Below, piece by piece: positions 26,050-47,748 of a stretch of 64,000 bases of DNA. A program made the translations under genes and the position numbers. The first letter of the stretch is position 1, and each line of letters opens with the position of its first letter. The stretch lies in assembly GCF_028728065.1 (NCBI RefSeq), contig NZ_CP117811.1:1984001-2048000 (forward strand). Reading direction: 5' to 3'. The notes under the pieces were generated by a model. The model had not been told where the DNA came from. It saw only the letters and a list, made by a program, of their open reading frames with translations, and ran no database searches. Source of the DNA: Lentisphaera profundi. Its GTDB lineage: Bacteria; Verrucomicrobiota; Lentisphaeria; Lentisphaerales; Lentisphaeraceae.

Positions 26050-26052
26050 TTA

Positions 26053-27420
26053 TTAATCCCTGAATTTATGATAGATTTTTTCCAACTGTATACCCCTCGA
26101 GGCCTTAAAAAACAAGGTCTCATCTGCTTTTATGTTTGCCTTTAAATACTCCCCTGCCTCATCACTATTTAAAAAAGCTTTTCCTTCTGAATTCACTTTA
26201 CTAAAACATTCACCGACTGTCAACAAATCAAAGCCTTTCATTGCCTTCGCTTGATTAAAAATAGCCTGATGATAGCTCATCGCCTTATCTCCCAACTCAA
26301 GCATATCTCCCAAAACTAAAGTTCCTGAAGAATAAAGTTCTTTTACCCACTTCAAAAAAGCTGCTGTACTCTGGGGGTTAGCATTATAACAATCCAAAAC
26401 AAAGGTCTTGTCCCCAACTTGCTCTGTTTTCATGCGCATCCCTGGTAAATCAAGATTACGGATAACCGGCACTAAATCTTCTATTTTGAAGGACCATTGC
26501 TTTTGAAAAAGCTCCAGCAAGGCCAAGCAAGCACAAATATTTAAGAGCTGATGCTCGCCACTAAGATTTGTTTCTAATTCTAATTGCTCGCCACTGTGCA
26601 ATTCAACAGTAAATAAACTTTTCCCCATGAGTAATTCATAGTTCAACAAACGCACATCGGCTTTTTCACTTTTCCCAAATGATATCACTCGGATATCTTG
26701 GCGATCACTTAAGGCTTTCTTGACTTTCTCGGAAAAAATTTCTGGAACGACAGCAACGCCCTCTTCCTCCATATAACGGAAAATATCTATTTTCTCCTCA
26801 AAAATCGCCTCTTCATCGGTGAAATTACCAATATGTGACGCTCCTACTGAAGTTAATATAGCTCCATGTGCTTTGACAATCTTGGCGAGATCCCCGATCT
26901 CACCAGGATGGTTAGTTCCCAGCTCTAAACTAAAACACTCTTCTTCGCCTTTGAGACGAACGATATTTTGCGTTACACCAATATGATTATTTGTATTGCC
27001 TAAGGTGCTTAATACTTTCTTGGGAAAAATGCTTTCAAGTAACTGGGATAGTACTGCATTGGTACTCGTCTTACCTGAACTACCCGTCACCGCAAAACGC
27101 TTGGCTTTCCTTTGCTTCATCAACAAATAATGCCCAAGTTGCTGCCATGCTTTTACCGTATCTTGTACCTTTATCATCGCAACAGAATCTTGAGCCAACA
27201 ACTCGACCTCTTTGGAGACAATCAAAAGCCTCGAACCCTTTTCCACTGCAAGATCTAAATAATTATGCCCATCAAAGTTATCGCCATCAAAAGCAAAAAA
27301 AACCGCGCCAGTCAAATCTTTTCGGGTATCACTCTCGTAAGTCGTATAATCATCAAAATTTCTATCTTTTACCAAGACCTCTCCACTTATTGCTTGGCAC
27401 AAGTCATTAAAATCTAACAT
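26053..27420 (-). CDS. murF: UDP-MurNAc-tripeptide:D-Ala-D-Ala ligase
   Basis: 455 residues, Mur ligase family. The nucleotide loop reads VTGSSGKTSTNAVL; the central domain has SLELGTNHPGEIGDLAKI and the C-terminal domain FVLDCYNANPQSTAAFL, the latter being typical of MurF. It adds D-Ala-D-Ala to the muropeptide in the cytoplasm. The start overlaps the end of murE by seven bases. Confidence 0.96.
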   Translation of the reverse strand: MLDFNDLCQAISGEVLVKDRNFDDYTTYESDTRKDLTGAVFFAFDGDNFDGHNYLDLAVEKGSRLLIVSKEVELLAQDSVAMIKVQDTVKAWQQLGHYLLMKQRKAKRFAVTGSSGKTSTNAVLSQLLESIFPKKVLSTLGNTNNHIGVTQNIVRLKGEEECFSLELGTNHPGEIGDLAKIVKAHGAILTSVGASHIGNFTDEEAIFEEKIDIFRYMEEEGVAVVPEIFSEKVKKALSDRQDIRVISFGKSEKADVRLLNYELLMGKSLFTVELHSGEQLELETNLSGEHQLLNICACLALLELFQKQWSFKIEDLVPVIRNLDLPGMRMKTEQVGDKTFVLDCYNANPQSTAAFLKWVKELYSSGTLVLGDMLELGDKAMSYHQAIFNQAKAMKGFDLLTVGECFSKVNSEGKAFLNSDEAGEYLKANIKADETLFFKASRGIQLEKIYHKFRD

Positions 27421-28832
27421 GCTTTCTCTTCCTCAATAATTTTTCTACACAAATCTCTATCACAAAAATCCACTGTATGATCCTTATATATCTGCGTCTG
27501 TTCATGCCCTTTGCCGGCGATGATCAAACAATCTCCTGGACCCAAGGCACTACTTGCTGTTCTTATGGCTTGCTCCCGACCCAAGATAATCTCTGCGGAT
27601 CTTTGTTTAGTTGATAAGATATCTTCTATGATTTTCGAGGGCTCTTCACTTCGTGGATTATCATTTGTTAAAGTCACCTCATCGGCCAAATCTGATGCAA
27701 GTCCCATTCCATACCTACGGCTGCGATCGCGATCTCCCCCACAACCAAAAACCAAAAATAATTTGTCTAGACAAATTTTACGGACTTCGCCTATCACTTT
27801 CTCTAAGGCTTCTTGTGAATGAGCAAAATCCACTATGAGCTTTGCACCATTCGCTTTCTCAAAAACCTCTAAACGACCAGGTACTCCCGGAAAGCCTAGC
27901 ATAATATTTTTTATCTTGTGTATTGAAGACTTACCCAATAACTCTGTCGCCAAAAGGATTGCGCCCGCAGCATTATATAAATTATAATCTCCAAGGAGCT
28001 TTGGCATGACGACTTCAGTCTCATTGAAGATCACGCCCTGCTCTGTTATCACACAGTCCGCACCTATGGATTCAGAAAAAGTTTTTGTGGCTGGATCGAG
28101 TAAACGCGTACCATAAGTATCATCGGCATTCACTACTTTGATTTTTGAATAATAATCCTCAAACAAAGATTTTTTTACGTCAAAATACTCTTCCATTGAA
28201 CCATGATACTGAAGGTGATCTTCACTAAGATTAGTAAATAAAACGGCCTCAAAAGCTAAGCCATATAAACGCATTTGATCTAGCCCATGACTTGAGGCTT
28301 CCAAGACTACATATTTAGCACCTTTTTGATGAACCTCTTCAAAAAATGAATGGAGTTCTTCCGCTCCCGGAGTGGTCAAAGCACTGGGGTTTATTTCTGT
28401 ACTAAGACCTTGACCCAAAGTCCCCATAATAGCGGCTTTCTCACCCATGCCATTAAGGATATATTGGAGGATATAAGCCGTACTGGATTTGCCATTGGTC
28501 CCTGTTATTGCAATAATCTTCAATTTATCACAAACATCATCATGAAAAAATCGCGCAAGTTTAGCATTGGCTTTCCTGAGGTCTTTCACACAAACCTGAG
28601 GTATAGCCACATCGAGGAACTCTTCGCAAAGCAGCACTCGAGCGCCTTTAGCTAAAGCTTCGGCAATAAATTTACTGCCATCGAGGGAGTGGCCTTTCAG
28701 AACGGAAAAGACATAGTTTTTCTTAATCTTTCTTGAGTCTGAACTAAATCCTTCAACAAATTCTGGCAAGCCTGAACTTACCTTAGGCTCCAAAGCCTCT
28801 AAGCATTTGAGTAGTTCTTTACTTGACTTCAT
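27414..28832 (-). CDS. murE: UDP-MurNAc-L-Ala-D-Glu:meso-DAP ligase
   Basis: 472 residues. ATP loop ITGTNGKSST, TTPGAEELHSFF, EASSHGLDQMRL and the specificity motif DNPR (in TNDNPRSEEP), which in characterised MurE enzymes binds meso-diaminopimelate rather than lysine. The organism is therefore predicted to make DAP-type peptidoglycan. The gene overlaps ftsI by 14 bases and murF by 7, so translation is coupled. Confidence 0.96.
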   Translation of the reverse strand: MKSSKELLKCLEALEPKVSSGLPEFVEGFSSDSRKIKKNYVFSVLKGHSLDGSKFIAEALAKGARVLLCEEFLDVAIPQVCVKDLRKANAKLARFFHDDVCDKLKIIAITGTNGKSSTAYILQYILNGMGEKAAIMGTLGQGLSTEINPSALTTPGAEELHSFFEEVHQKGAKYVVLEASSHGLDQMRLYGLAFEAVLFTNLSEDHLQYHGSMEEYFDVKKSLFEDYYSKIKVVNADDTYGTRLLDPATKTFSESIGADCVITEQGVIFNETEVVMPKLLGDYNLYNAAGAILLATELLGKSSIHKIKNIMLGFPGVPGRLEVFEKANGAKLIVDFAHSQEALEKVIGEVRKICLDKLFLVFGCGGDRDRSRRYGMGLASDLADEVTLTNDNPRSEEPSKIIEDILSTKQRSAEIILGREQAIRTASSALGPGDCLIIAGKGHEQTQIYKDHTVDFCDRDLCRKIIEEEKAC

Positions 28833-30543
28833 CGGAGATTTCTTCTGGCAAGTCAGGTTTTACATTTAAATAGCGCAAAGTTTTTTCTGCTATACGTCTA
28901 AAAGTTGGTGCTGCGGCAGTACCACCATAACGGTACTTATAGGCAGGCTCATCCACTACAACCATTAATACAAAAGCTGGGTTATCTGCAGGGGCGTAAC
29001 CGACAAAGGAAGCTACGTGAATTGTATTTGAATACGCGTTATTGACCCATTTTTGTGAAGTCCCTGTCTTTCCTGCTACATAATAGCCTGGCACATGAGC
29101 CTTAGGTGCGGTACCCCCATCTCGTGTTACTGTTTTTAAAGCGTTTGTCATTCCTTGAGTGACGCGCAAAGGTAAAACTCTTCGCTTAAGAAGTGGTGGA
29201 TATTCAATGACTTCCTCTGTACCAGCTTTCTTCACTTTATCCACAACACGTAACTGCATCATATTGCCATCATTGGCTAGAGCGCCCCACGCCTGCATCA
29301 TTTGCGGTACTGTAACAGCAATACCCTGCCCAATAGGCATGCGACTAATTGATAAACCATCCCATTTATTAGCCGAACGAAAAATCCCTCGTGACTCAGT
29401 CCCTAAATTAAGTCCTGTTCTTTCTCCAAAACCAAAGCGCCTCAAGCCTGCATACATGGCATTTTTACCAACGCTAATTGCCAGTTTTGCGGTTCCAATA
29501 TTACTCGATTTTTGAATTACCTGCCAAATGGGGATCGTTCCATAATGGTGTCCCGCATCTCGCAAAGGCTTACCCGAATGAAACCACATGCCATCTTCAC
29601 AATCAATACGGTCATTAAATGAAATATTTCTCAAACTCATTACCACGGCAATACTACAGGCCTTCATAATCGACCCTGGCTCAAATACATCTTCTAAAAG
29701 GCGATTGGCATACTTATCTCGAGTCATGGTCGAACGTTGATTCGGATTGAAGGTGGGTCGCTGGGCCATGGCTAAAATTCCACCCGTTCTCGGGTCTGTC
29801 ATCATTGCATAGACTGACTTACAAGGAATCTCTGAAACTAGGCGATCTAACTCTTCTTCCATAAAAGACTGAATAGGCTCGGAAATTGTTAGATACACAT
29901 CCCAGCCATCCTTAGGATTGATGCTTTTTAGCGTATGCAGTTCTTTATTCCTGCGAGAGCGCTCAATAACCACTTCACCACTAGTTGGTGTCATTTCCTT
30001 ATCATATTTAGATTCGATGCCCATGACCCCATTTCCCTTATGGCCCATAAAGCCCAAAACATTAGATGCTAAGGTATTTTTCGGATAGAAACGACTTTGG
30101 GATTCTTCATAATGTAAGCCAGGTAATTTCATTTCGCGAAGCTTCATCACTTTATCAATAGTAACACCCTTCGCTACCACTAACTGAACAAGTTTTTCAT
30201 TCTCAAAACGAGGGCGAAGTAAGGCATCACTCACCCCTGTTTCTTTTTTGAGAATTTCAAAAACTTCCCATTTCCTGGAACCCATATGCCTCGGTTCAGC
30301 AAAGACCTCGTAAGTCACTCTGGTCATCGCTAAGATATTGGGGGCAGGTGAACGCGTGGAATCAAAAATCATTCCACGTCGACCTTTAGATAGACGCTTG
30401 GCGGTATATTTTTTTTGAGCTTTACTTAAAAGTTCATCATGACGATGAACTTGGACATAATAAAAACGCGCCAAAAGCACCGAAAAGAATAGTACGGCAA
30501 AAGTCGTAACTAAAACTAGGCGTGCTTTAAAGCCATCACGCAT
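28819..30543 (-). CDS. ftsI: Septal peptidoglycan transpeptidase FtsI (PBP3)
   Basis: 574 residues, class B penicillin-binding protein. A short cytoplasmic N-terminus and one membrane helix (LVLVTTFAVLFFSVLLARFYY) precede the dimerisation domain. The transpeptidase has SIMK (Ser291, Lys294), SSN (346-348) and KTGT (492-495), all intact. No PASTA domain follows. It cross-links septal peptidoglycan during division. Located between the ftsL-like gene and murE, the usual order. Confidence 0.96.
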   Translation of the reverse strand: MRDGFKARLVLVTTFAVLFFSVLLARFYYVQVHRHDELLSKAQKKYTAKRLSKGRRGMIFDSTRSPAPNILAMTRVTYEVFAEPRHMGSRKWEVFEILKKETGVSDALLRPRFENEKLVQLVVAKGVTIDKVMKLREMKLPGLHYEESQSRFYPKNTLASNVLGFMGHKGNGVMGIESKYDKEMTPTSGEVVIERSRRNKELHTLKSINPKDGWDVYLTISEPIQSFMEEELDRLVSEIPCKSVYAMMTDPRTGGILAMAQRPTFNPNQRSTMTRDKYANRLLEDVFEPGSIMKACSIAVVMSLRNISFNDRIDCEDGMWFHSGKPLRDAGHHYGTIPIWQVIQKSSNIGTAKLAISVGKNAMYAGLRRFGFGERTGLNLGTESRGIFRSANKWDGLSISRMPIGQGIAVTVPQMMQAWGALANDGNMMQLRVVDKVKKAGTEEVIEYPPLLKRRVLPLRVTQGMTNALKTVTRDGGTAPKAHVPGYYVAGKTGTSQKWVNNAYSNTIHVASFVGYAPADNPAFVLMVVVDEPAYKYRYGGTAAAPTFRRIAEKTLRYLNVKPDLPEEISDEVK

Positions 30544-30549
30544 TAAGAA

Positions 30550-30918
30550 TTATGGCTGAACTGTAGTTACAGCAAGTTGCCCTTCTGAACCCAATTGTTT
30601 TCCGACATCATCAAGTGGAGCCTGAATATGATAAAGCTCCATCACATAACTGGGGTTCGGCGAATGTAAATTTAATTTATATTCACGTACTTTTCTGAAA
30701 ATGTAACTGCTCTGAGTCTTCTCTTCTAACTGAGCTTTTAAGTTGATACGACGCACTTGAGCTTCATGAAGAAGTTTCTTTTGTAAGGACAATTCAGACT
30801 GGATTTTATCCTGGTGCGTTTCCATATATAAATAGCCTAGTGCCAACACCAAGACTAATAATGCATCAAAGATCAAGATCCAGCTTCCGCCGCGCTTTGC
30901 GTCCTTATTGTTTTTCAT
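30550..30918 (-). CDS. FtsL-like divisome protein
   Basis: 122 residues. A basic N-terminus, one membrane helix (WILIFDALLVLVLALGYLYM) and a periplasmic coiled-coil stretch (SELSLQKKLLHEAQVRRI) match the plan of FtsL, which recruits FtsW/FtsI. Sequence similarity in FtsL is always weak, so the call depends on topology and on the position between rsmH and ftsI (6 bp gap to ftsI). Confidence 0.75.
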   Translation of the reverse strand: MKNNKDAKRGGSWILIFDALLVLVLALGYLYMETHQDKIQSELSLQKKLLHEAQVRRINLKAQLEEKTQSSYIFRKVREYKLNLHSPNPSYVMELYHIQAPLDDVGKQLGSEGQLAVTTVQP

Positions 30919-30936
30919 TTTCCTATCCTTATCTTA

Positions 30937-31872
30937 TTAAATTTTTTCGGCCACACGCAGCTTTGCACATGCGGATCTTGTATTTTCTTCAAGCTCACCT
31001 GACTCAGCGGTCAAGGGCTTACGTGTTATGATTTTCATTTGTGGTGAACGTCCACAGACACACACAGGGATATCTGGAGGGCAATCACAGGCTACTGCTT
31101 TCTCTTTGAAAAACTCTTTCACCATTCGGTCTTCGAGCGAATGAAAACTTATGACCGCCAAACGCCCTCCTGGCTTCAGAAGATCAAAGGCAGCTGCCAT
31201 GCCGGACTCAAGTGCTCCAAGTTCATCATTGACGGCAATTCGCAAGGCTTGAAAAGCTAGTGTTGGCGCTGGATTTCGTTTACGGCGATTGCGATTAACA
31301 CACACTCGATCAGCTAAACCAGCTAATTGCTCTGTATGTGTAAAGAGCTCCTTATCACGATCTGCCACAATGGCTTTTGCCAAGCGATAAGCTTCTTTCA
31401 TTTCCCCATAATCTCTAAAGATTTTCGTGAGGCCTTCTAAACTTTCTTTATTGAGAATCATAGATGCCGTAACTTTTAGGCGGCGATCCATACGCATATC
31501 TAATGGGCCATTTTCTCGATAAGTGAAACCACGACTCGCTTCATCTAAATGATGAGAACTCACACCGATATCCATTAAAATACCATCGACCTGATTCCAG
31601 CATTCATCTTTTTTGAGATCTTTTAAATCACGAAAATTCAATCGCTTTGACTGGAAATTTTCACCATACTTACTCAAGCGTTCTTTCGCAGCCCGCAAAG
31701 CCTTGTCATCACAATCAAGCCCTAAAAGCTGGATATCCTTAGCGCTTTCAAGGATAAGCGAACTATGTCCACCTCCACCTAAAGTACAATCAATATATTT
31801 GCCTCCTGCATGAGGCTGTAATCCATGAATAACTTGTTCAGCTAAAACGGGTATGTGGTAAAAATCTTTCAT
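30937..31872 (-). CDS. rsmH: 16S rRNA (cytosine-1402 N4) methyltransferase
   Basis: 311 residues. SAM-binding motif DCTLGGGGHSSLIL, with IPVLAEQVIHGL at the N-terminus, DGILMDIGVSSHHLDEASRGF, and LAVISFHSLEDRMVKEFF. It methylates C1402 of 16S rRNA. The start codon overlaps the mraZ stop by one base. Confidence 0.97.
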   Translation of the reverse strand: MKDFYHIPVLAEQVIHGLQPHAGGKYIDCTLGGGGHSSLILESAKDIQLLGLDCDDKALRAAKERLSKYGENFQSKRLNFRDLKDLKKDECWNQVDGILMDIGVSSHHLDEASRGFTYRENGPLDMRMDRRLKVTASMILNKESLEGLTKIFRDYGEMKEAYRLAKAIVADRDKELFTHTEQLAGLADRVCVNRNRRKRNPAPTLAFQALRIAVNDELGALESGMAAAFDLLKPGGRLAVISFHSLEDRMVKEFFKEKAVACDCPPDIPVCVCGRSPQMKIITRKPLTAESGELEENTRSACAKLRVAEKI

Positions 31873-34913: not shown

Positions 34914-35510
34914 CTACTTAAGCTGGGCAAAAGATGTAATCACTTTGGATACCATGCCATAAGTTTTTGCTTCTGCAGGACTCATCCAAAAATCACGATC
35001 CGCATCCTTGCTTACTACTTCTAATGTTTTTTTACATATGTCGGCTACAATCTGATTATAGCGCACACGGGTTTTATTAATTTCGTCAGCGGTAATCTCG
35101 ATATCAGAAGCCGTACCTCTCACACCAGTACTTGGCTGATGAAGCATAAAGCGTGAATTAGGTAAAGAGAAATTCTTACCTTTTTTAGCCGCTAAGAAAA
35201 TCAAAATCGCCGCGCTTGCACACATACCACTGCAAACTGTATAAACTGGAGCTTTGAAGAACTGGAGCATATCATATATAGTAAAACCTGAATCAGCGCA
35301 ACCGCCACCAGAATTTATATAAACGTAGATAGGTTCTTTTTCAGAACGTTTATTCAATAGGATCAACTGACTTAGAACCCGTCTAGATAGTTCTGGTGAT
35401 ATCTCTTCCGCAATAATAATTGTACGCGTATCGAGCATCTCTTTCATCATTCCCGCTGGTTCTTTCTCAGTCTTCTTTTCTTCTTCTTCATCTTCTAAAC
35501 GAAAATACAT
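34914..35510 (-). CDS. clpP: ClpP-like ATP-dependent protease proteolytic subunit
   Basis: 198 residues, the usual ClpP length. The nucleophile is Ser99 in SGMCASAA, with His124 in FMLHQP and Asp169 in SKDADRDFW. INSGGG forms the oxyanion region. An unusual acidic/Lys-rich N-terminus (LEDEEEEKKTEKEP) replaces the common start. A strong AGGAG precedes the ATG. No ClpX/ClpA gene is adjacent; chromosomes of this group often have more than one clpP, so this may be an accessory copy. Confidence 0.93.
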   Translation of the reverse strand: MYFRLEDEEEEKKTEKEPAGMMKEMLDTRTIIIAEEISPELSRRVLSQLILLNKRSEKEPIYVYINSGGGCADSGFTIYDMLQFFKAPVYTVCSGMCASAAILIFLAAKKGKNFSLPNSRFMLHQPSTGVRGTASDIEITADEINKTRVRYNQIVADICKKTLEVVSKDADRDFWMSPAEAKTYGMVSKVITSFAQLK

Positions 35511-35624: not shown

Positions 35625-37352
35625 TTATCTGATAGGGCGATCAATCATTCTTGTAGACAAAGTCTTACTATAAAAATAGCTTTTATCCATTTCTTTCCCA
35701 ATTAACATCGCCTCAGCCATATCTACAACCTGATCGAAACTATCGCGATATTCCTCACCGACCTCTTTTTGCCATTCCACAAATTCTTTACTTTCTTTAA
35801 ACATGCGCTTCGCTTCGCTTGAACCTTGCTTTGCCCAATGCGCTAAACAAAGGTAAGCATTTTCACGGACATAAGAAGGATCAAAAGTATTTTCACTCAG
35901 TGGAACTTTAACCAACTTTTCCGTAATCAACTTTTTAAGTTCGAATAAACTCCTGTTGTTAACATGGTCACTATTGGTCATTGCCCAAATCATATAAGCC
36001 CGCACAGCAGAACTTGGCTGAGTATTTTTCTTTTGATCTTTTCTCGACTTGAGTCCTGGCTGTATCAATTTAGAAAAATCAGTCTTAGGGTTGTGGGCTA
36101 CTCCATCAAAAAACGCCTGACGTATAGTCATATCTTTCGTTTGAGTATATTTAACCAAGCCTTTTATATCAGAATCTTTTGCTACCGCCGCTAAGTAAAA
36201 GATAAGCCCTTGCTGAAAGGCAGCTTGACGTTTCTTCTCAAGTCCTTTCAAGGACTTACTATCCACGCGATATTTCATCACTCCAAGGTAACGCAAGCAG
36301 GCTTTCGTAACATCGGGGTTTGTACTATGCTTTAAAATGTTTAAAACTGAGTCTTTGCCCTCTTCCATTGCTTGATCTTCCATCACCGCTAGTTTCGCTA
36401 AGTTAATGGCATCCGCACCTTTTTCGAGAGTACAAAAATCACTATGCAGCGAAGCAGGGATTGCCTCTGCCGAAAACACTTCTATCGCTAATACCCCGGC
36501 CGCGATAGGCAACTTATAAACTCTTGATAATAAAAACTCTCTATTATCACTTTTTTCCACTAAGACACTACAGGCGGCTAATTTGATATCATCATTAGCA
36601 TTGAGAACGGCTCTTTTCGCCTCATCATTAAAGGACTTATTCCATTCGAGTTCACTCATCCTCAAAAAAGCAGAAACCGCGAACTGCTTAAGCCGACTTT
36701 GTTTCACTAAAAAATCAGATGAATGACTTGAGGCAATGAATTTACTCCTCTGAAAATCATTTTCGCATTTCTTGTAAGCTGCATTTTCATTAATTCGTGC
36801 CAGCTGTTTTAGCAACAACTCTTTTTTATACTCCGCCTTAGTTCGGCTCAAAACCTTCATCAACAAACGAGCGTCATCCACTTTCCCCGATAAGCATGCC
36901 ACAATCACATACTCATCCGACTTGTTCAAATAAGGTTTTAAGACTTCCGCAGATGAATTTTTAGCAAGTACCGTGAAGGCATCTAATGAAAAAGTTTTAT
37001 CCTTCACCAGCTTCTCCAAACTTTTTAAGCTTGAAGCACTCTGCTCCATATAGACTAGGGTAGATAAAATTTGACTTTTGACTTTAAGACTTTTTTCTAA
37101 GTGAAAAATCTTAAGTAAGGCTTCGCTTAAGTGTGCACTTCCCGTCACTTTACTGAGTCGACTAATCAACACCTGCTTTTCATTGACACTATAATGAGGC
37201 CATTGCCTAAGAGCTAAACTCAAGACATCCTCGCTAACCTTGTAAGAAGTGTAATGACTTGGATAATCCCCTGACAAAAGCGGGCGATCATCGACTATGT
37301 TTTGATAATTGGCTACCTGAAGCTGAACTCCCGCCATTAAGATCGCAATCAT
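35625..37352 (-). CDS. Helical-repeat (HEAT-like) protein of unknown function
   Basis: 575 residues, almost entirely predicted alpha helix in pairs of about 35 residues, for example SEALLKIFHLEKSLKVKSQI then LSTLVYMEQSASSLKSLEKL. This is the pattern of HEAT/TPR-type solenoids, but no named family is recognised. The N-terminus has a short hydrophobic stretch (MIAILMAGVQLQV) that may be a weak export signal. It is the last gene of the operon and its start overlaps the permease stop by one base, so it is very likely a partner of the ABC system; a protein-binding scaffold is the simplest idea. Confidence 0.65.
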   Translation of the reverse strand: MIAILMAGVQLQVANYQNIVDDRPLLSGDYPSHYTSYKVSEDVLSLALRQWPHYSVNEKQVLISRLSKVTGSAHLSEALLKIFHLEKSLKVKSQILSTLVYMEQSASSLKSLEKLVKDKTFSLDAFTVLAKNSSAEVLKPYLNKSDEYVIVACLSGKVDDARLLMKVLSRTKAEYKKELLLKQLARINENAAYKKCENDFQRSKFIASSHSSDFLVKQSRLKQFAVSAFLRMSELEWNKSFNDEAKRAVLNANDDIKLAACSVLVEKSDNREFLLSRVYKLPIAAGVLAIEVFSAEAIPASLHSDFCTLEKGADAINLAKLAVMEDQAMEEGKDSVLNILKHSTNPDVTKACLRYLGVMKYRVDSKSLKGLEKKRQAAFQQGLIFYLAAVAKDSDIKGLVKYTQTKDMTIRQAFFDGVAHNPKTDFSKLIQPGLKSRKDQKKNTQPSSAVRAYMIWAMTNSDHVNNRSLFELKKLITEKLVKVPLSENTFDPSYVRENAYLCLAHWAKQGSSEAKRMFKESKEFVEWQKEVGEEYRDSFDQVVDMAEAMLIGKEMDKSYFYSKTLSTRMIDRPIR

Positions 37353-38992
37353 TATCCTTTTCTCCTACTCATCATTTGTCTTACCTTTATTGCACCCAAA
37401 ATAGAAAAAATTGCTGCGGTAATAATTAAAAACAATACGTTAATTTGCCAGAAGTCTCCTTCTAGAAAATCTGTAAAAACTCTATCCGTATTTCTCAGAC
37501 CACCAGCAACAGGATTGATCATTAAAATCTTACGCATCAATTCCTCTCCTAATTTATCACTAAAAAGAAGAACTGAGAGACTCCCCACTGTTACTGTAAA
37601 GGCAAAAATATAAGATGCCGCCGTTGCACCTGCGCTGGTTTTTGAAACTGCCGAGAAAAACAAGCCCGCACAAATAAAGCACAAAGCCGCACTCGCTAAG
37701 AGCCAAATCATTGGCAATAAATTTCCACCGCGCCCGTCCTGTAAAAAGTTCAGACTAAAAATCACTGGGATACTACAAGCCATTATAAAAAAGATATAGA
37801 TAAACCCTGCATACAATTTACCCAGTACATAGCGAAAAGCTCCAATCTGACTCATGCGTACAAACAGTAAATTACCGGAGTTCACATCTTCTGAAATTGA
37901 ACTCGCACACACTCCCGGAGCAATCAAAACCGTTAAACCTAGCTGATAAATAACGGCGCCATACTCAACTGAATTCTGTCCTAAATGAGTCGAATAGCCA
38001 CTAGAAAGCACAATGAGTAAAACTATACTTATGGCATTACATGTGGAAAAGGTCCATAAAAGAAATCGTGGATTCCCAAGCATTTTACTTCTCAACTCCG
38101 CCATGAAAATCGGATTAATAAACATTGGCGTTAAACGCTTAGTGCCTGTCGTATCGAAAATAAACATCAATTTATAAAAAATGCTCTTCCCTTCTTTTAC
38201 ACGACTTTGACGTGCCTTTGTTTGATTTCTCGATAATAATTTGATTCGAAATACAAAACATGAAATAATAAAAATCAGTATATTAAAGGCCAAAAACTTT
38301 AAAATATTATCTCCCGAACCGCCTCCGAGCAAGGTCCTATGCTCACTATATATCAATTGATAAAGGGCATCAAATGGACTGAAAGAACGAATCAACTCGA
38401 GTAGAGGTTTAATATTCTGCTGACTTAGCAATAAATCGGGCAAGAATACCGCGCCACTCATCAACGCCACCAACAGGTAGGACTGAATCAGTGCTGAATT
38501 ACTACTACTAGCACTTGCTGAAACAGCTAAACAAACACCTCCATAACAAATTGCCGAGATAAGAATAATGAGCTGGCCCTGTATCAACACATCTATGTTC
38601 ACACCTCCCGAAAGTAGACATAATGCGCTAACAGGAAGAAAAAATAGCACCATAAATAATTGCATCGTTATAACGGCGAAGAGCTTACCAAACATTATAT
38701 CGCCCGGTTTTAGCATAGTTGTAATCAACATCACAAAACGATTTTTCTCTTTTTCATCCGAAACCGAACAAGCACATAAGGCCGGAACGAACGATAAAAT
38801 AATAGCTAGGTTCAGTAATAATATAATAGAGAATATATGTCGGCCTGAGGATCTAATAACCGAAAACACATCACTCTCCGGCCACAGTAAGCACAGAAAG
38901 CCCGCCATTGCCAAGAAGGCAAAAAAAACAAAACTCTGCAAGCGTACATCCCGCAAATACTGTTTCAGTTCATGTATAAATATAGTAAACAT
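37352..38992 (-). CDS. ABC-2 type transporter permease
   Basis: 546 residues with about 12 membrane segments in two halves, each starting with a short cytoplasmic helix (IHELKQYLRDVRLQSFVFF; FMAELRSKMLGNPRFLLW). VCASSISEDVNSGNLLFVRM is the amphipathic pattern seen in ABC-2 proteins of the gliding/export branch. The duplication suggests that one protein supplies both membrane halves. It lies 6 bp after the ABC ATPase gene, which should be its energising partner. Confidence 0.85.
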   Translation of the reverse strand: MFTIFIHELKQYLRDVRLQSFVFFAFLAMAGFLCLLWPESDVFSVIRSSGRHIFSIILLLNLAIILSFVPALCACSVSDEKEKNRFVMLITTMLKPGDIMFGKLFAVITMQLFMVLFFLPVSALCLLSGGVNIDVLIQGQLIILISAICYGGVCLAVSASASSSNSALIQSYLLVALMSGAVFLPDLLLSQQNIKPLLELIRSFSPFDALYQLIYSEHRTLLGGGSGDNILKFLAFNILIFIISCFVFRIKLLSRNQTKARQSRVKEGKSIFYKLMFIFDTTGTKRLTPMFINPIFMAELRSKMLGNPRFLLWTFSTCNAISIVLLIVLSSGYSTHLGQNSVEYGAVIYQLGLTVLIAPGVCASSISEDVNSGNLLFVRMSQIGAFRYVLGKLYAGFIYIFFIMACSIPVIFSLNFLQDGRGGNLLPMIWLLASAALCFICAGLFFSAVSKTSAGATAASYIFAFTVTVGSLSVLLFSDKLGEELMRKILMINPVAGGLRNTDRVFTDFLEGDFWQINVLFLIITAAIFSILGAIKVRQMMSRRKG

Positions 38993-38998
38993 ATTGAC

Positions 38999-39922
38999 CT
39001 ACTTAGCTGCCAATTGCATAAACATCTCTTCCAACTCTAGCTCATGGAGTTTAAAGGAATTAACTCGTATACTGTTTTCAATAAGGTACGCTAATACTTT
39101 CGCACCAATATCTTCATCTTTATTACATGAGAAGGAAACTTCTTGTTCACGAACTTGAATATCCTTAACTGATCCCATATTTGACAAAAATTCCTGCGTG
39201 CGACCTAAATCATCCACATGGACTTCGATATCATAAGTCTTTTTGTCTGTCAATGACTCCGTTATGTCCTCAAGCTTACCAAAAGCTTCCATCTTGCCCT
39301 TATTAATAATACCGACTAGATCACACATATTGCCCAAGTCAGGTAAAATGTGAGATGACAAAATAATTGTTTTCCCAAGATTTTTAAGTTCGCAAACAAC
39401 TTCACGCATTTCTATACGTGCCTGAGGATCTAAGCCACCAGCTGGTTCGTCCAATATCAGTACTTTGGGATCAGGTAAAATTGTTTTTGCCAGCCCAATT
39501 CTCTGACGCATCCCTCTGGATAAAGAGGCGACTTGATAATCCACCATATCTTCCGAACGAGTCAAGCTTAAGGCATGTACAATTCTTTCTTTACGAAGCT
39601 TACGGGGAATTCGATATGCGGCACCAAAAAAATCCAAATACTGCCAAACAGTCATACGATCATAGACGCCAAAAATATCGGGCATATAACCCACCGTCTG
39701 CTTGAGCTTCTTTAAATTTCGTGGCTTAACTTCAATACCATTAATTTTAGCACTTCCTGAGTCCGCATCCATCAAGCCTGTCAGAATTTTGAATGTAGTC
39801 GTTTTTCCTGCGCCATTGTGACCGACATAGCCCATTATAGAACCTTCAGGAACTGTAAAACTAAGATTATCAACACCACGTCCAGAGCCAAAGGACTTGC
39901 TTAATGAGTTTAATTCAATCAC
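38999..39922 (-). CDS. ABC transporter ATP-binding protein (ABC-2 type)
   Basis: 307 residues. Walker A GHNGAGKTTT, signature LSRGMRQRIGLA, Walker B VLILDEPAGGLD, and SSHILPDLGNMCD. The C-terminal extension of about 80 residues is common in ATPases that partner ABC-2 permeases. Its start overlaps the stop of the gene before it by four bases (ATGA). Together with 37352-38992 and 39919-42093 it forms a GldA/GldF/GldG-like set. Confidence 0.95.
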   Translation of the reverse strand: MIELNSLSKSFGSGRGVDNLSFTVPEGSIMGYVGHNGAGKTTTFKILTGLMDADSGSAKINGIEVKPRNLKKLKQTVGYMPDIFGVYDRMTVWQYLDFFGAAYRIPRKLRKERIVHALSLTRSEDMVDYQVASLSRGMRQRIGLAKTILPDPKVLILDEPAGGLDPQARIEMREVVCELKNLGKTIILSSHILPDLGNMCDLVGIINKGKMEAFGKLEDITESLTDKKTYDIEVHVDDLGRTQEFLSNMGSVKDIQVREQEVSFSCNKDEDIGAKVLAYLIENSIRVNSFKLHELELEEMFMQLAAK

Positions 39923-42093
39923 GGTAATTCTCCCTTGAGGCTAATTTTAAATTCTTTTGACTTAAATTCTTTCACTGTTTGGATCTGCGATTTATCTTCA
40001 AATATAATTTCGAGATCAAAATACAATTCATTTACATCCTTAGCTTTCGGCAATTTATAAGTAAGGTTCTTACCTGTAAAATCTTTACGCTTACTACCAT
40101 CAACTAATTTATATTTAACTGGATAAGCAGAATCCAAGTCAATCGCCACTTGAATTTCACTCACTTTCAAGCCCGATAATTCTACTGGAACTTGCACTCT
40201 AAAACCACAGCGATGACGCCCACCGACAGCTGTCTTGGTGTACATTTTTTTATTAATGTCCCACAGTCGTTGAAAATCGGTGAAATTAATCCCCACAAAT
40301 TCTTCAGGCACAAGTATTTTTTTATTTTTTGCTTTTAAGCGTACTGGATACACCAATAAACCCTCCGTGTCCTCATTATGCTCTCTCTTAAAGAGCATAA
40401 CTTGGCTTCGTCCTTGATCTTCTAGAAGTGGCTTAATAATCCCTGCATTGAAGTCATCCTCTTTCAATACGTACACACCATTCTTACCCAAGAGCATATC
40501 TCCTTCTATACTAGAGGCTATTCCAGATTCATCTAAAATAAGCTCTAGGTATTTATTGGATTCTAACTCAGGATTCATCGACCACTCAACAAAACTGCGC
40601 CAAGTCTCGGCTTCAACTTCGGTCCCATCCAAACTCAGAGTATTTTTATCTGCTGATATTTTTAAAAAATTAACATTGAGGCTTTCGATATCAACTTCTG
40701 ATTTTCTCGCTGTATCTTGTGTGATATTCAATCTAGATGATGCCATTTGCCCTGCGCTCTTAGGCTCTTCATATGTACTAACATTCACAATGCGATTCTT
40801 AGCCATATCTCTAGAAAAACTGAGCTTCCCTGCTTTTACTTCATAAAAGCTATGAACAATCTCTTTTATACCTGAATTAACTTGATGACTATATTCTACT
40901 TTTAATCTCTTGGATTCTTTTGGTACATTAATCATTTTATCTTTGCCCAAAATCAAATATGCGCTAAAACAGACTGAGACTAGGCCAACCACAAACCAAG
41001 AGTACTGAACTTTTTTGAAGACTCTCGCCAAGAGAAAGATAGTAAAGACAGTCAGGCCGTACACCAACAAAATCATAAATAGCTTACTACTATTAGGAGC
41101 AATCATACCACTTAAACTGGAAGTGTAACGCTCTAGACTGGGATCCCCGTTATCCGATGGCAGTACCAATCTCCGACTATAACTCAAGAAAAAATTCAAG
41201 AACTCTGAGATATCCTCCGAATGAGGTCCTAGTGATTTCTGCGCTAAAGGCACCGCATAAAAGAAACTTAAACCTAAGCCGACAGGTCGAGCTGCCACCA
41301 GCACATCTTTTTTATCTTTTAACATCACGTAACTGTCGTCAAATAACTTCACTCGCATAAAATCAAAACTTTGCGTCGTCTTCAAATCTTCAAAACCTTT
41401 CTTAAGCATCACGCGGCTGGCATTTCTCTGACTCAGTGAAAGGATTTTAGCAGGTAGTAAATAGCCATAACCCGTATCATACATATGCTCAATCGTATCT
41501 GGGTGACTAACTAGTAAGGAGCCTCCATTATTAACATATTGCGAAACAATATCTAATGCCGCTTTATTTAATTGAGATTTACTCGGCTTATTGATGATAA
41601 GTAAATCAACACTTTTTAAATCAGCCCAATTCATAGGTATCTGGTCAATTGTATTGACACTTCTCTGCGATGCCTTTAGGAAACTCGATTTTAAACCATT
41701 TTGATCAATAGGGTTATCTAAGATCACTACATTTACTATGTTTTTGACAAACACTTTCATGTTTGTTTGATTAATTAATTTCTTTCCCTGTTTAAATTGT
41801 AGCTTCATCTCTCTACAATCAGCATCAAGCTTAAAAGGAAAGTCGCGCGAAGAATGACTTTTTGCTGCCAGAGAAAATTTATACTCCCATGTATTTAACG
41901 GATAGGAGGAATTAAAAAACAGCAGTTCTACATCTTGCTGCTTATTCGTTTTATTTTCAAAATTGACATTCATCATCACCATTGACTGAGAACTGACTTT
42001 CAAAGCTCCATGCTGCTTGATAAATGCACTCGTCATTTTCAAGTCTTGCGCCATCACTACGCTCATAAACATTATGCACAATATATACTTCAC
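39919..42093 (-). CDS. GldG-like membrane-anchored periplasmic protein
   Basis: 724 residues. A signal peptide (MKYILCIMFMSVVMAQ) is followed by a beta-rich domain, then a flavodoxin/amidotransferase-like fold (VNVVILDNPIDQNGLKS; DLLIINKPSKSQLN; VNNGGSLLVSHPD) without a catalytic Cys-His-Glu set. Two membrane helices lie near residues 340-390 (LFMILLVYGLTVFTIFLLA). The C-terminal half is again beta-rich and probably periplasmic. The plan resembles GldG/DUF4350-type proteins that accompany ABC-2 transporters. The gene overlaps its neighbours by four bases on each side. Function unknown. Confidence 0.65.
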   Translation of the reverse strand: MKYILCIMFMSVVMAQDLKMTSAFIKQHGALKVSSQSMVMMNVNFENKTNKQQDVELLFFNSSYPLNTWEYKFSLAAKSHSSRDFPFKLDADCREMKLQFKQGKKLINQTNMKVFVKNIVNVVILDNPIDQNGLKSSFLKASQRSVNTIDQIPMNWADLKSVDLLIINKPSKSQLNKAALDIVSQYVNNGGSLLVSHPDTIEHMYDTGYGYLLPAKILSLSQRNASRVMLKKGFEDLKTTQSFDFMRVKLFDDSYVMLKDKKDVLVAARPVGLGLSFFYAVPLAQKSLGPHSEDISEFLNFFLSYSRRLVLPSDNGDPSLERYTSSLSGMIAPNSSKLFMILLVYGLTVFTIFLLARVFKKVQYSWFVVGLVSVCFSAYLILGKDKMINVPKESKRLKVEYSHQVNSGIKEIVHSFYEVKAGKLSFSRDMAKNRIVNVSTYEEPKSAGQMASSRLNITQDTARKSEVDIESLNVNFLKISADKNTLSLDGTEVEAETWRSFVEWSMNPELESNKYLELILDESGIASSIEGDMLLGKNGVYVLKEDDFNAGIIKPLLEDQGRSQVMLFKREHNEDTEGLLVYPVRLKAKNKKILVPEEFVGINFTDFQRLWDINKKMYTKTAVGGRHRCGFRVQVPVELSGLKVSEIQVAIDLDSAYPVKYKLVDGSKRKDFTGKNLTYKLPKAKDVNELYFDLEIIFEDKSQIQTVKEFKSKEFKISLKGELP

Positions 42094-44285
42094 ACTCTCT
42101 CCTTAAGTTGTTCGAGTAACGTTTTTACTTTTTCATATCTATTTAAAAGTTCTTTTTCATGTTGAAACTCTTTAACTAAAAATAAGCCCAGCTGCTTTAG
42201 TTTTCCTGAAAGATCTATCATATAAGCCTCTTGTTCTGAGCTATACTTTTTATTTTGGCGCTTGGACATGATCATTGGAGCAAGAGATATTTCCTGAAGC
42301 ATCAAATGGCTAATAATGAGATCTTTACGAAAATCTTTTCCCAACTTTCTATAATACTCACCATATTTGAGTAATAGATTATGACCTCGTCGACTATCTG
42401 GAGCTAGTTGAAGACCTTTTCTTAAACTAGCCATAACCTCGTCCGCTTGCTTATTGCGCTGAAATTGAAGTTCCGCCAAACTAATATAGTTCATTCCGTA
42501 CCGAGGCTCTGACGCAATCGCTTTGAACATCGATCGCTCGGCCTCTAACAAATACTGCTCCATCGAAATTGCGTTCACTGCCATCCCCTGACTTTGCAGT
42601 GTTTTCTGGCGATAATACATAAGTAGCAATTTTTTACTTGCCATCCTCCATATATCAGGTCTTTCCATGAGCTCATCTAGAACCTCACATTCGGCAACAA
42701 TTTGCTCTGCTGATAAATAGTTCGGATCTCCCAACACACCGCAGCTTACACAATAAGCTAAATCATCTTGCTCTAGCGTTTCTAAACAGTAGTCACAATT
42801 TCTTAAGTTGAGGTTCCCTATTTTGATAAAGCGATAATCAATCAATGATGAGCCAAAAAAACGATCATGGCTCAATGAAAAGCGATGCAAAGAATACATA
42901 TCTTTTACAAAAAGAAATACGCAGGCACACAAACATAATAAACTTATATTTATACCCACTGAGACTTTATTAGATAAATTTTCATACTCTTCGTCACATG
43001 GACGTTTAATCAAAGTCAGCATCACTGCAAATGTGAGTAATGTTCCAGGTATAAAGAAATTAAAATCTAACTGCGCATGGATAAACCAAGCGAGTAAACC
43101 CCAAAATATAAAATGATTATATGACCACTTATCCTTATCCAAAATCTTTACTAAGTAAATAAAAGACGCAATAAACAGCAAAGAGGCCAGCAAGCCAGAT
43201 ATACCACATTGCCCAATCATCGTATTTAACATATTATGAGGTAAAATAGTACCCTCAGCCCCAGGGATTTTATGCAGTAGATAGTCGTTGCGGAATTCTC
43301 CCATACCTGCGCCCATAGGATTATTTTTGAACATCTCAAAACCTACTCGAGCATACTCACTTCTAACAATAACCGATGGTATATTAAACAAGATTGGCGC
43401 GCTCAGTGCTACCACTAAAACCAGCAAGCCCAAAGTCATTAAGCATTTCTTACGCGAAAGACTTAAGGCATAGGTGATCACACTCGCTGCTACAAAAGCC
43501 ATTATACCACCGCGGCTCTTTGTCAGCAACAAACACGTACACAGAGGAATAATAGCAATCAAAGACCACAGCATTAAGCGTTTTTTATCTGCTACAAAAG
43601 ACTGTAAGATGTGTCGAGCCATATAGAGAAATAGGCCAAAGATCAAAATAAGGTGTGCTGCGTAACTATTAGAAAGTACAAAATCTGCATAGAGTAAGGT
43701 TTCTTGGGCACGACCTTTAAAGTCACCTAAATTAACATTATTACTCTGTTCAATCATTTGAACATTTTGGCTAAACCCATAAAAGTATTGGTACAGGCCA
43801 TTATAAATAGATTTACACGCACCAAAAAAGATGGCTCCCATAAAAATCAACCTTGTTCGGGGACGCTGATTAACGGCTATCCACGCTGATAAGGCCAATG
43901 CCAATACTCCTACTACATGGCTTATGTACTGATTTAGAAAAGCTTTCTCCGTTGTTTGTATCCCCCCTGGCAACAACGCCAAAAGCAAAACAAACCAAGG
44001 AACAAAGAAATAAACCTGTTTGAGTTCTTTCACTAATCTTTGAGGGTAGGTTACTATTGCTAACACTAAGCATAACAAGGCGCTAATTGTCAGAATTTGC
44101 GACGGCCACGCTGCCGCGTAAATCCACGAATATAAATCCAATGGACTCAATTCTACCGCATTTTGACCAAAATTTAAACCAAAGTAGAGCGGACTTAAAA
44201 AAAGCAGGATCGATACCCCAATAATGAGTGATTTCTCGGCTAACTTCAAGTTTTTAAAGGGTTCACTCAAAATTAGTCTCCGCAA
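42090..44285 (-). CDS. O-antigen ligase/polymerase family membrane protein with TPR tail
   Basis: 731 residues. About 12 membrane helices (residues 20-450) include the Wzy/WaaL family region: TKSRGGIMAFV, ARVGFEMFKNNPMGAGMGEF and ILPHNMLNTMIGQCGISG. The C-terminal 270 residues are soluble and mostly helical, with TPR-like stretches (AERSMFKAIASEPRYGMNYI). Between the two lies CDYC-x11-CVSC (about 42739-42800), a possible metal knuckle not usual in this family. The start overlaps the RicT stop by 13 bases. Expected role: joining or polymerising surface glycans on the periplasmic side of the inner membrane. Confidence 0.8.
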   Translation of the reverse strand: MRRLILSEPFKNLKLAEKSLIIGVSILLFLSPLYFGLNFGQNAVELSPLDLYSWIYAAAWPSQILTISALLCLVLAIVTYPQRLVKELKQVYFFVPWFVLLLALLPGGIQTTEKAFLNQYISHVVGVLALALSAWIAVNQRPRTRLIFMGAIFFGACKSIYNGLYQYFYGFSQNVQMIEQSNNVNLGDFKGRAQETLLYADFVLSNSYAAHLILIFGLFLYMARHILQSFVADKKRLMLWSLIAIIPLCTCLLLTKSRGGIMAFVAASVITYALSLSRKKCLMTLGLLVLVVALSAPILFNIPSVIVRSEYARVGFEMFKNNPMGAGMGEFRNDYLLHKIPGAEGTILPHNMLNTMIGQCGISGLLASLLFIASFIYLVKILDKDKWSYNHFIFWGLLAWFIHAQLDFNFFIPGTLLTFAVMLTLIKRPCDEEYENLSNKVSVGINISLLCLCACVFLFVKDMYSLHRFSLSHDRFFGSSLIDYRFIKIGNLNLRNCDYCLETLEQDDLAYCVSCGVLGDPNYLSAEQIVAECEVLDELMERPDIWRMASKKLLLMYYRQKTLQSQGMAVNAISMEQYLLEAERSMFKAIASEPRYGMNYISLAELQFQRNKQADEVMASLRKGLQLAPDSRRGHNLLLKYGEYYRKLGKDFRKDLIISHLMLQEISLAPMIMSKRQNKKYSSEQEAYMIDLSGKLKQLGLFLVKEFQHEKELLNRYEKVKTLLEQLKERV

Positions 44286-45166
44286 CTATCGCAATCATCT
44301 GTCGAACACGATTTATCTGAATCTGTTGTTGAGCAGTCATCACCGCAGGCACTTTCTTTTGTATCGACGAGTTCATCCAATTGTTCTCTAGATACATTCA
44401 TCACCCGCCCATCTTGTTTCACTCTCACTAAAACCGATCGATTCAGTAAAGTTGTATCCAAAACTCGAGCTTCTTGTCCACGGACCATTATTTGACTTCC
44501 ATGAAGTGGCATGTCTTTCGAAATTAATTGGTAGCCTTCATACTCGAAAGCTAGGCAACACTTCAAGCGACCACATTGTCCTGATATCATATTGGCCTTA
44601 AGTGATAAATGCTGCTCTTTTGCCATTCTTACATTCACACTCTGAAACTCATGTATCCAAGATGTGCAACATAAAACTCTGCCACAGGTCCCTATTCCAC
44701 CTCTCATCTTCGCTACGTCGCGAACTCCCACCTGTCTCATTTCAATCTTCATATTTAAGCTTGACGCCAATTCTCTGACAAGCTGCCTAAAATCAACACG
44801 TTTTGGGGATAAGAAACGAACCACTGCTCTTCTTCTATCAAAGGATATATGTGCGTCTACCATAGATATATCTAATTGTGAACGGGAAATAATGGCTTCA
44901 GCTTTTTGTCCTGAAATACGGTTAAATCGATGGTTTTCATTCGCTTTATTTTGATCTTGTAAGGTCGCTCTCCGTAAAATCTGAGGCATGCTCTCTGCGT
45001 CGGCTTCGATGGGCAGTTCACCACGGCAATGAACAACACGAGCGTATTCTTTATACGTCCCGAAGTCCAATATGACTGCATCGTTTTTCTTCAACTTCTT
45101 ATTCTCTAAACCAAGGCAATCCATCCGAATACCCGATTCTAGCCAAACTTCATATACTAACTTCAT
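44273..45166 (-). CDS. ricT: PSP1/RicT (YaaT)-like protein
   Basis: 297 residues. The PSP1 C-terminal domain is unmistakable: MRGGIGTCGRVLCCTSWIHEF, MAKEQHLSLKANMISGQCGR, LKCCLAFEYEGY, with the cysteine set of the family (shown in parts). In Bacillus, RicT with RicA and RicF binds FeS clusters and affects RNase Y maturation of mRNA. A Cys/Asp-rich tail of 25 residues (CGDDCSTTDSDKSCSTDD...) is added. It is the first gene of the operon; the link between RicT and an O-antigen ligase is unexplained. Confidence 0.92.
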   Translation of the reverse strand: MKLVYEVWLESGIRMDCLGLENKKLKKNDAVILDFGTYKEYARVVHCRGELPIEADAESMPQILRRATLQDQNKANENHRFNRISGQKAEAIISRSQLDISMVDAHISFDRRRAVVRFLSPKRVDFRQLVRELASSLNMKIEMRQVGVRDVAKMRGGIGTCGRVLCCTSWIHEFQSVNVRMAKEQHLSLKANMISGQCGRLKCCLAFEYEGYQLISKDMPLHGSQIMVRGQEARVLDTTLLNRSVLVRVKQDGRVMNVSREQLDELVDTKESACGDDCSTTDSDKSCSTDDCDSCGD

Positions 45167-45338: not shown

Positions 45339-45366
45339 TTGACAAGACAAAGTTCCGATTTATTTT
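45339..45366 (+). promoter_or_regulatory. Promoter of the diheme cytochrome gene
   Basis: TTGACA (45339-45344, perfect consensus), a 16 bp spacer and TATTTT (45361-45366). This promoter lies within the longer reading frame upstream of the cytochrome gene and argues for the ATG at 45417 as start. Confidence 0.6.
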
Positions 45367-45416
45367 CATATACATATTTTTTAATACTATATACACAAAC
45401 ACAAGGATATTACCTC

Positions 45417-46226
45417 ATGTCTAGCAAACCAAAAAACACTGGTGGACCTTTAGTTATCACATTTTCTTTCGTACTTATTGGCATGCTCGCTTTTGGATTC
45501 ACGGGCTTAGCTAAAACAGCCAAAGATAGCTACGCAAAAAACCAAAGTGAAATCACTAGACTACAAGACGCTCAAAAACTGGAACTCCAATCACGTTCCG
45601 AAAAAGCGAAAGCTGCTATCGCACAAAAAGCAGAGCTCAAAGCTCAAGCCGCATCACCTGTTGCTGGCGCAAATGTCGAAATTGGCAAAGCAAAGTATAT
45701 GCTTTGTGCAACTTGCCACGGGCCAAATGGCGAAGGCATGACGGCTCTAAAGTCTCCTGCTCTTGCTGGACAAAGCGCTGAGTACATCATTCGCCAACTT
45801 CAATACTTCAAACACGGCGTTCGCGGTGCAGACCCAGCCAAAGACATGCAAGGTTCTATGATGGCTCCGATGGCCAAAATGCTTTCAGATGATGACATGA
45901 CCAATGTTGCCGCCTATATCGGAACACTTACAGGTAAAGCTCAGCACACATTAACTGGTGATGCCAATGCTGGCAAAGCAAAATATATGCTTTGTGCAAC
46001 TTGCCACGGACCGAATGGCGAAGGCATGCCTGCCATGAAGTCTCCGGGTTTAACTAACCTTCCTGATTACTATATCGTATCACAGCTTCAGAATTTCAAA
46101 CACGGTGTTCGCGGCGCAGACCCTGCTAAAGATATGCAAGGTTCGATGATGGCTCCTATGGCCAAAATGCTTTCAGAAGAAGATATGAAGAATTTAGCAG
46201 CATACATCAAGACTTTAGCTAAATAA
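45417..46226 (+). CDS. Membrane-anchored diheme cytochrome c (c4-like)
   Basis: 269 residues. One N-terminal membrane helix (PLVITFSFVLIGMLAFGF) anchors it; an Ala/Lys/Gln-rich helix (34-78) spans to two nearly identical class I cytochrome domains of about 85 residues. Each has CATCH (C97-C100-H101; C193-C196-H197) and a distal MMAPMAKML segment for the Met ligand. AAGGA lies before ATG 45417. Likely role: electron transfer at the periplasmic face of the inner membrane, for example to an oxidase, which is not in the window. The strong similarity of the two halves indicates a recent internal duplication or gene conversion. Confidence 0.92.
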   Translation: MSSKPKNTGGPLVITFSFVLIGMLAFGFTGLAKTAKDSYAKNQSEITRLQDAQKLELQSRSEKAKAAIAQKAELKAQAASPVAGANVEIGKAKYMLCATCHGPNGEGMTALKSPALAGQSAEYIIRQLQYFKHGVRGADPAKDMQGSMMAPMAKMLSDDDMTNVAAYIGTLTGKAQHTLTGDANAGKAKYMLCATCHGPNGEGMPAMKSPGLTNLPDYYIVSQLQNFKHGVRGADPAKDMQGSMMAPMAKMLSEEDMKNLAAYIKTLAK

Positions 46227-46923: not shown

Positions 46924-47748
46924 ATGAACCTCCTTCCCTGCTTACATGGCACCTTTACGTATTACCATGACTCATGGCTACCAACTTTAACTGAACTTGG
47001 CATCACACCCACAGATCCGTGGACTACTATTCATCCTGGTATTTCAGTTAGTCGTAGTAAGCGCGTCAATTGTTTTTTAATTGAAGACAATCATAAAAAA
47101 TCATTTTATAAAACCTATCAACTTCACGATAAATTCTGGGAATTCTTCTTCCGGCCATCCAAATGCCTGACTGAAGTACGTAACTACGAGACCATGAAAA
47201 AAATCGGGATCCCATGCCCTACTGTACTTGCTTATGGTGAACGTAGATCTTTTGGAAGCCTTCATGAAAATTTCATTGTCACTGATGCTATCACTGATGC
47301 TCAAGACCTCAGTAATTTTGCCGAAGAATGGTTTCTTATTAAATGCTCCACAGAAAAGAACAGAATTTATCAAGAACTATCCCAAAAAGTACTCAAACAA
47401 ACCAAACTCGCTCATCGCAATAATTTTTTCCATTTCGACCTTCATTGGCGAAATATCTTAATCAAAAAAGATCTTAGTGGTAACTGGCAAAGCTTTTGGA
47501 TTGATAGTCCCCGTGGGTGTAAAATAAAATTCGACAGACGACGCGGATATCTTGTCGACCTATCATGCCTCGCAAGGTTTGCTGTATACTATCTCACTAG
47601 AACACAGCGCTACCGCTTTATTTGCGACTACCTCGACTTGCCTGGTGGCCCAAAAGTCAAAGCTCTATTCCGAGCAGTTGACGCACGTTTAGCTAGAAGA
47701 CCTCCCCCCATCCCTAGAAAAATAAGAGAAAGACCAAAAAATTCATAA
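46924..47748 (+). CDS. Lipopolysaccharide kinase (WaaP/KdkA-like)
   Basis: 274 residues. A protein-kinase-like fold is indicated by SFYKTY (nucleotide Lys), NNFFHFDLHWRNILI with catalytic Asp172, and WIDSPRG (metal-binding Asp). The spacing and the HFDLHWRN sequence match the Kdo/WaaP family that phosphorylates sugars of the LPS core. No clear Shine-Dalgarno precedes ATG 46924, so the start is slightly uncertain. The C-terminus is basic and proline-rich (ARRPPPIPRKIRERPKNS). The neighbouring Yej-type transporter follows by 63 bp. Confidence 0.85.
   Translation: MNLLPCLHGTFTYYHDSWLPTLTELGITPTDPWTTIHPGISVSRSKRVNCFLIEDNHKKSFYKTYQLHDKFWEFFFRPSKCLTEVRNYETMKKIGIPCPTVLAYGERRSFGSLHENFIVTDAITDAQDLSNFAEEWFLIKCSTEKNRIYQELSQKVLKQTKLAHRNNFFHFDLHWRNILIKKDLSGNWQSFWIDSPRGCKIKFDRRRGYLVDLSCLARFAVYYLTRTQRYRFICDYLDLPGGPKVKALFRAVDARLARRPPPIPRKIRERPKNS

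Follow-up and report, generated by a model that had tools for sequence, protein, structure and literature searches.

A six-gene unit of Lentisphaera profundi is probably a lineage-specific fusion of two older gene modules

Six closely packed genes

The window analysed here is a stretch of 64,000 nucleotides of Lentisphaera profundi (contig NZ_CP117811.1, positions 1,984,001 to 2,048,000; positions below are counted from its first letter), the minus strand of which carries six open reading frames (ORFs) that an initial annotation had noted as overlapping or near-touching. The run begins with ricT, of the PSP1 family (44273..45166), followed by a gene for a Wzy_C (O-antigen ligase family) membrane protein with a C-terminal region of tetratricopeptide repeats (TPR; 42090..44285), and continues with genes for a GldG-like protein (39919..42093), a DrrA/GldA-type ATPase of an ATP-binding cassette (ABC) system (38999..39922), a fused ABC-2 permease of 6+6 transmembrane (TM) segments (37352..38992) and a HEAT-type alpha-solenoid protein (35625..37352). 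The coordinates and spacings were confirmed and are nearly the same in two congeners, and the domain calls made at annotation (RicT, Wzy_C with TPR, GldA/DrrA-type ATPase, double-length ABC-2 permease, GldG-like protein, HEAT-type solenoid) held throughout. We propose that the unit probably arose in one lineage by the fusion of two modules that are older than it and maintained independently of each other, namely module A (ricT-ligase) and module B (gldG-ATPase-permease-HEAT).

The spacings between the six genes are -13, -4, -4, +6 and -1 bases in the window and -1, -4, -4, +7 and -1 in one congener, while those measurable in a second congener (G002) are -13, -4 and -4. As deposited, the permease gene of the latter (L017 5357-6996) is interrupted by a frameshift, which may be real or an assembly error. 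Between congeners, the ATPase, the permease and RicT are 89-92% identical, and the GldG-like, HEAT and ligase proteins 57-68%. Since the GldG-like and HEAT proteins have diverged to 55-60% identity, the conservation of the spacings reflects more than mere recency. Furthermore, the order is conserved in five genomes of two genera, which excludes a chance arrangement.

The numbers reported for these contacts at annotation were correct; however, the 13-base overlap of ricT and the ligase gene is probably a start-codon artefact. The TTG at 44285, from which it arises, has no Shine-Dalgarno sequence, and an alternative TTG at 44270, two bases past the ricT stop and with GGAG upstream, fits better as the real start. 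In the congener and in families f8 and f11 the same junction is formed by stop-start overlaps (TAATG/TGATG). GGAG-like sites also precede the gldG, ATPase and HEAT genes, and a terminator scan placed every terminator-like match within the unit inside coding sequence; a promoter scan was uninformative (36 matches against 36.7 expected). The six genes would be co-transcribed, and because their overlaps and near contacts are conserved they would also be translationally coupled; the tight spacings claimed at annotation are observed, and the coupling is read from them.

Distribution of the two modules

Our sample comprised 149 genomes of the class Lentisphaeria together with relatives outside it. 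RicT was found in 139 of the 149. The ligase profile had matches in 147 of the 149, and clear matches to the GldG-like protein (E-value below 1e-20) were present in 48. The best ligase match lies directly behind ricT on the same strand in 51 of 139 genomes, representing 32 of 71 genera and 15 of 22 families; in f5 and f9 the two genes are never neighbours (0/53 and 0/19 genomes, respectively). The GldG-like gene follows the ligase gene only in Lentisphaeraceae (f1), the family of the window, where it does so in five of the six genomes sampled, belonging to two genera; RicT and the GldG-like gene are both missing from the draft genome of a third genus (G003).

Module B alone, in the same order, is present in f3, f6, f7, f12, f16 and f22, as well as in a single genome from outside the class; variants of it occur in f8, f11, f20 and f23. 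In every other class family where both modules were found they are separate loci, and f2 and f13 possess module A without module B. As to whether relatives keep the gene order, a point raised at annotation, the full six-gene order recurs within Lentisphaeraceae (five genomes) and is elsewhere split into A and B. The ligase is independent of module B, since it is present in 147 of 149 genomes and B clearly in 48.

Module A: RicT and the ligase

RicT scores 223.1 bits against NCBIfam model NF041131 (cut-off 70) and 72.8 bits against PF04468. Its six cysteines (C161, C166, C167, C198, C203 and C204) match exactly the published RicT iron-sulphur (Fe-S) motif CX4CCX30CX4CC (PMC6751060), which is intact in 25 of 26 RicTs checked, the remaining one carrying C167S. 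In addition, the window protein ends in a cysteine-rich tail, ACGDDCSTTDSDKSCSTDDCDSCGD (44276-44350), some form of which is present in all five RicTs of Lentisphaeraceae and in none of the 21 others checked. This tail might supply the cluster ligands that RicA and RicF give in Bacillus.

Those two partners (PF06133) found no match in the organism's own genome with a search that was positive in the Bacillus control. Among 79 class genomes, PF06133 exceeded its cut-off in two, one of them without a RicT match and the other inside an 899-aa frame. The search for RNase Y returned one 516-aa protein at 425.7 bits, slightly below the cut-off of 454; this search also matches genomes not known for RNase Y and falls below the cut-off in more than half. 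The window RicT therefore resembles RicT (YaaT) of the Bacillus RicAFT/RNase Y system in passing the NCBIfam cut-off, in its exact cysteine motif and in the presence of a candidate RNase Y homologue, but differs from it in that RicA/RicF were not found, in the tail that is confined to Lentisphaeraceae, and in the pairing of its gene with that of a glycan ligase. Because RicA/RicF are absent, control by RicT of the Bacillus type is doubtful here. The most likely role of RicT is in the general processing of mRNA, alongside the RNase Y-like protein.

The ligase reaches 36 bits for Wzy_C (PF04932; gathering cut-off 31.7), possesses many TM segments by hydropathy, and carries S257-R258, R308 and H350 as invariant residues; the family profile also matches TPR structures. 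Hydropathy gave no decision as to the side of the membrane on which the TPR region lies. Ligases at genus level contain, ahead of the TPR region, additional residues that include two CxxC pairs (NCDYC...CVSC; window approximately 42740-42810) and are missing in other families. At five loci where the ligase gene stands apart from ricT, no evident glycan gene cluster was seen, the neighbours having been judged largely by eye, and this placement, together with the ligase match in 147 of 149 genomes, favours a ligase over a glycan-specific polymerase. Given its presence in almost all genomes of the class, and the lack of a visible glycan cluster around it at loci away from ricT, the protein is predicted to be a housekeeping enzyme of the WaaL/O-oligosaccharyltransferase (O-OTase) type. 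With WaaL/PglL it shares a Wzy_C domain above the gathering score, the many TM segments and the invariant SR, R and H; unlike these, it has a C-terminal TPR region, a near-universal distribution in its class and no observed glycan cluster.

Module B: the ABC set

The ATPase matches PF00005 (105 bits) and PF13732, its best NCBIfam model being GldA (TIGR03522; 222.8 bits, below the cut-off of 402.6). The permease matches PF12698 in two stretches (53.5 bits), has 12 hydrophobic segments, and finds its best NCBIfam model in GldF (TIGR03518; 29.7 bits against a cut-off of 288.5). The GldG-like protein consists of a beta domain, a GATase1-like (GIFT-type) domain at approximately residues 122-279, two TM helices at 335-387 and a C-terminal beta region. 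Its matches to the GldG, IFT52 and DUF7408 families, with PF24157, PF23355 and PF09822 among them, are weak and sub-threshold. A search of genome contigs confirmed no relatives, and a genome search was used instead; profile comparison with class relatives by hhalign gave a probability of 99.8 (E 7e-30). An AlphaFold2 (AF2) model of the protein, with a mean predicted local distance difference test (pLDDT) score of 67.6, presents an alpha/beta domain, two TM helices and beta domains, and Foldseek lists the GATase1-like structures 2gk3 and 3soz among its matches, in agreement with the sequence evidence. A beta-glycosidase identity suggested by the same search had a low TM-score and was rejected as a shared beta-sandwich.

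The AF2 model of the HEAT protein (mean pLDDT 75.6) is all-helical, and Foldseek returned generic HEAT/ARM matches only. PF13646 is matched by the window protein at E 0.0013, below the cut-off, and by its relatives well over it. Single-sequence methods, and hmmsearch with three genus proteins, found no relatives outside the genus, but hhalign aligned the protein over 482 columns with those at the same position in other families (probability 98.1, E 8e-14). Shuffled and reversed controls gave probabilities of 0.1-1.6, and the N- and C-terminal parts each match alone. The comparison of predicted structures envisaged at annotation bore out the solenoid at 35625-37352 and, for the product of 39919-42093, yielded GATase1-like matches. 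The HEAT protein is probably extracytoplasmic, and we infer that the ABC set works at the envelope as a complex, its conserved motor powering outer components that evolve fast.

NosFYD-type ABC-2 systems combine a DrrA-type ATPase and an ABC-2 permease with a periplasmic repeat protein, the beta-helical NosD. Module B is similar in joining such an ATPase and permease to a large repeat protein of this kind, but here a HEAT solenoid and a GldG-like subunit replace the beta-helix, the permease is fused, and no copper genes were seen adjoining.

The likeness to the GldA, GldF and GldG proteins of gliding Bacteroidota, remarked upon at annotation, extends to the domains (a DrrA-type ATPase, an ABC-2 permease and a membrane protein with an extracytoplasmic GATase1/GIFT-type domain) and to the best-scoring models, and stops short of the curated cut-offs. 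A reading of module B as a genuine GldAFG transporter for gliding motility would be favoured by the ranking of GldA and GldF as best models, by the GATase1/GIFT-type domain, and by weak matches of the GldG model to three of eleven GldG-like relatives (best E 0.0016). The GldA and GldF cut-offs are, however, missed by far, and GldG (TIGR03521) finds no match in the window protein. The permease is of double length with 12 TM segments in one chain, the GldG-like protein carries a pair of TM helices in its centre and an extended beta region at its C-terminus, and the HEAT partner is an addition. Moreover, gldG stands first in the operon, an order unlike the published one, in which gldF and gldG lie together with gldA elsewhere (PMC9127263, PMC5682007). 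GldM had no match in the genome, in a search that matched no control genome either. By the curated cut-offs module B is not GldAFG, and we consider an identity with the gliding transporter very improbable. A literature search for a link between RicT and gldH yielded nothing relevant.

Genes around the unit

In three congeners a clpP-like gene (34914..35510, minus strand; PF00574, 204.6 bits) comes after the unit, at distances of 114, 114 and 109 nt and without a clear terminator in the gap. It is a possible seventh member in the genus only; in the sister genus it does not adjoin the unit. Since a clear terminator-like site, a hairpin of 10 pairs (5 G-C) followed by TTTTTT, lies only past clpP, on its 3' side (34890-34866, minus strand), the gene may be co-transcribed with the six. 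Divergent from ricT is a gene for a tandem cytochrome c protein with closely similar repeated halves (45339-46226), and near the unit on the opposite strand is one for a WaaP/Kdo-kinase-like protein (46924-47748), followed by an oligopeptide-type ABC transporter. The window also contains a cell-wall and division cluster (24946-31872) with mraW, an ftsI-like transpeptidase gene, two Mur ligase genes and an mraY-like gene, and an IS110-type transposase gene (21293-22390).

Discussion

How ricT and the ligase gene came together can be traced in part. Outside the class, ricT otherwise stands in the string tmk-holB-ricT-aroQ, in some genomes with accB-accC behind; the domains were checked at representative loci. 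One genome outside the class (G151) has tmk-holB-ricT-ligase-aroQ-folE, and remnants are seen within the class as ricT-ligase-aroQ in f22 and ricT-ligase-accB-accC in f6; no other ricT neighbour is widely kept in the sampled class loci. The simplest account is that the ligase gene was inserted behind ricT in a housekeeping string, the string then shed its other members, and in the ancestor of Lentisphaeraceae the ABC set came to follow the ligase gene. In the RicT tree the sampled class members group together (98/98) and the position of G151 is not settled, so that one insertion and two are not distinguishable.

It is quite possible, if short of probable, that this adjacency is neutral, an old insertion that persisted with no functional tie; such a reading bears on module A alone and does not conflict with a fusion of two modules. 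The partial retention of the ancestral string tmk-holB-ricT-aroQ-accB-accC around the pair, and the separation of the two genes in f5 and f9, favour it. On the other hand, the pair was kept in the class while the other ancestral neighbours were mostly lost, and the stop-start overlaps in f1, f8 and f11 suggest coupled translation of the two genes.

The initial annotation had envisaged a single surface-glycan export and assembly machine, in which the ABC set exports a glycan (or the carrier of that glycan) and the ligase attaches it, with the HEAT and GldG-like proteins as scaffold and RicT in control of the mRNA. Such a machine would accord with the adjacency of the six genes and their overlaps conserved in five genomes of two genera, with the position of the Wzy_C enzyme in the middle of the unit, and with the association of the genus Lentisphaera with exopolymer production in the literature. 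It is nonetheless unlikely, though conceivable within the family, and, as an export machine under RicT control, not supported: the modules are separate outside Lentisphaeraceae, with A occurring without B in f2 and f13; the near-universal ligase far outnumbers module B; domain searches of the six ORFs revealed no glycosyltransferase or flippase; and RicA/RicF are missing. More speculatively, and with still less likelihood, RicT without RicA/RicF, the tail cysteines perhaps taking on the second Fe-S cluster in Lentisphaeraceae, could control the class-wide ligase at the level of RNA or translation, and within the family the HEAT/GldG-like ABC complex as well, thereby tying the surface glycan to the iron or redox state.

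A fusion of two independently maintained modules seems to us the likelier reading, although several points weigh against it. The tight overlaps, conserved across genera despite diverged proteins, suggest selection for joint expression and hence a possible functional tie in the family. Because the ligase profile derives from copies next to ricT, it favours finding such copies, although most adjacent genomes did not contribute to it. Many relatives are fragmented metagenome-assembled genomes, which makes the adjacency counts lower bounds.

On the fusion reading, the ligase of module A would move an undecaprenyl-linked glycan onto a periplasmic acceptor, with its TPR tail binding a partner, and RicT would be a single-cluster Fe-S RNA-processing protein. 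Its role, together with the RNase Y-like enzyme, would probably lie in mRNA metabolism at large and not in the dedicated regulation of glycans. In module B, the motor would consist of two GldA/DrrA-type ATPases acting on a single fused ABC-2 permease with 12 TM segments. The GldG-like protein, with its two TM helices, would expose its GATase1-like and beta domains to the periplasm, where the HEAT solenoid would dock. By analogy with the general manner of working of GldAFG or NosFYD, the power stroke might be passed to these outer parts so as to extract or assemble a cell-surface substrate. The joining of the modules in Lentisphaeraceae would mainly give shared transcription and translation.

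The linkage in module A and the HEAT-bearing module B both appear undescribed, their parts being drawn from known superfamilies; no paper joining the PSP1 domain or RicT with an O-antigen ligase was found in the collection of papers searched, subscription literature lying outside it. What could be taken for a one-off six-gene curiosity is replaced by two reproducible gene neighbourhoods: a RicT-ligase link that spans 15 of the 22 RicT-bearing class families sampled, and a four-gene, HEAT-bearing ABC set that is a recurrent, putative envelope system. Either module is a target for genetics in cultured relatives of Lentisphaera or Victivallis, and RicT, standing here outside RicAFT, offers a good case for asking what its own role is.

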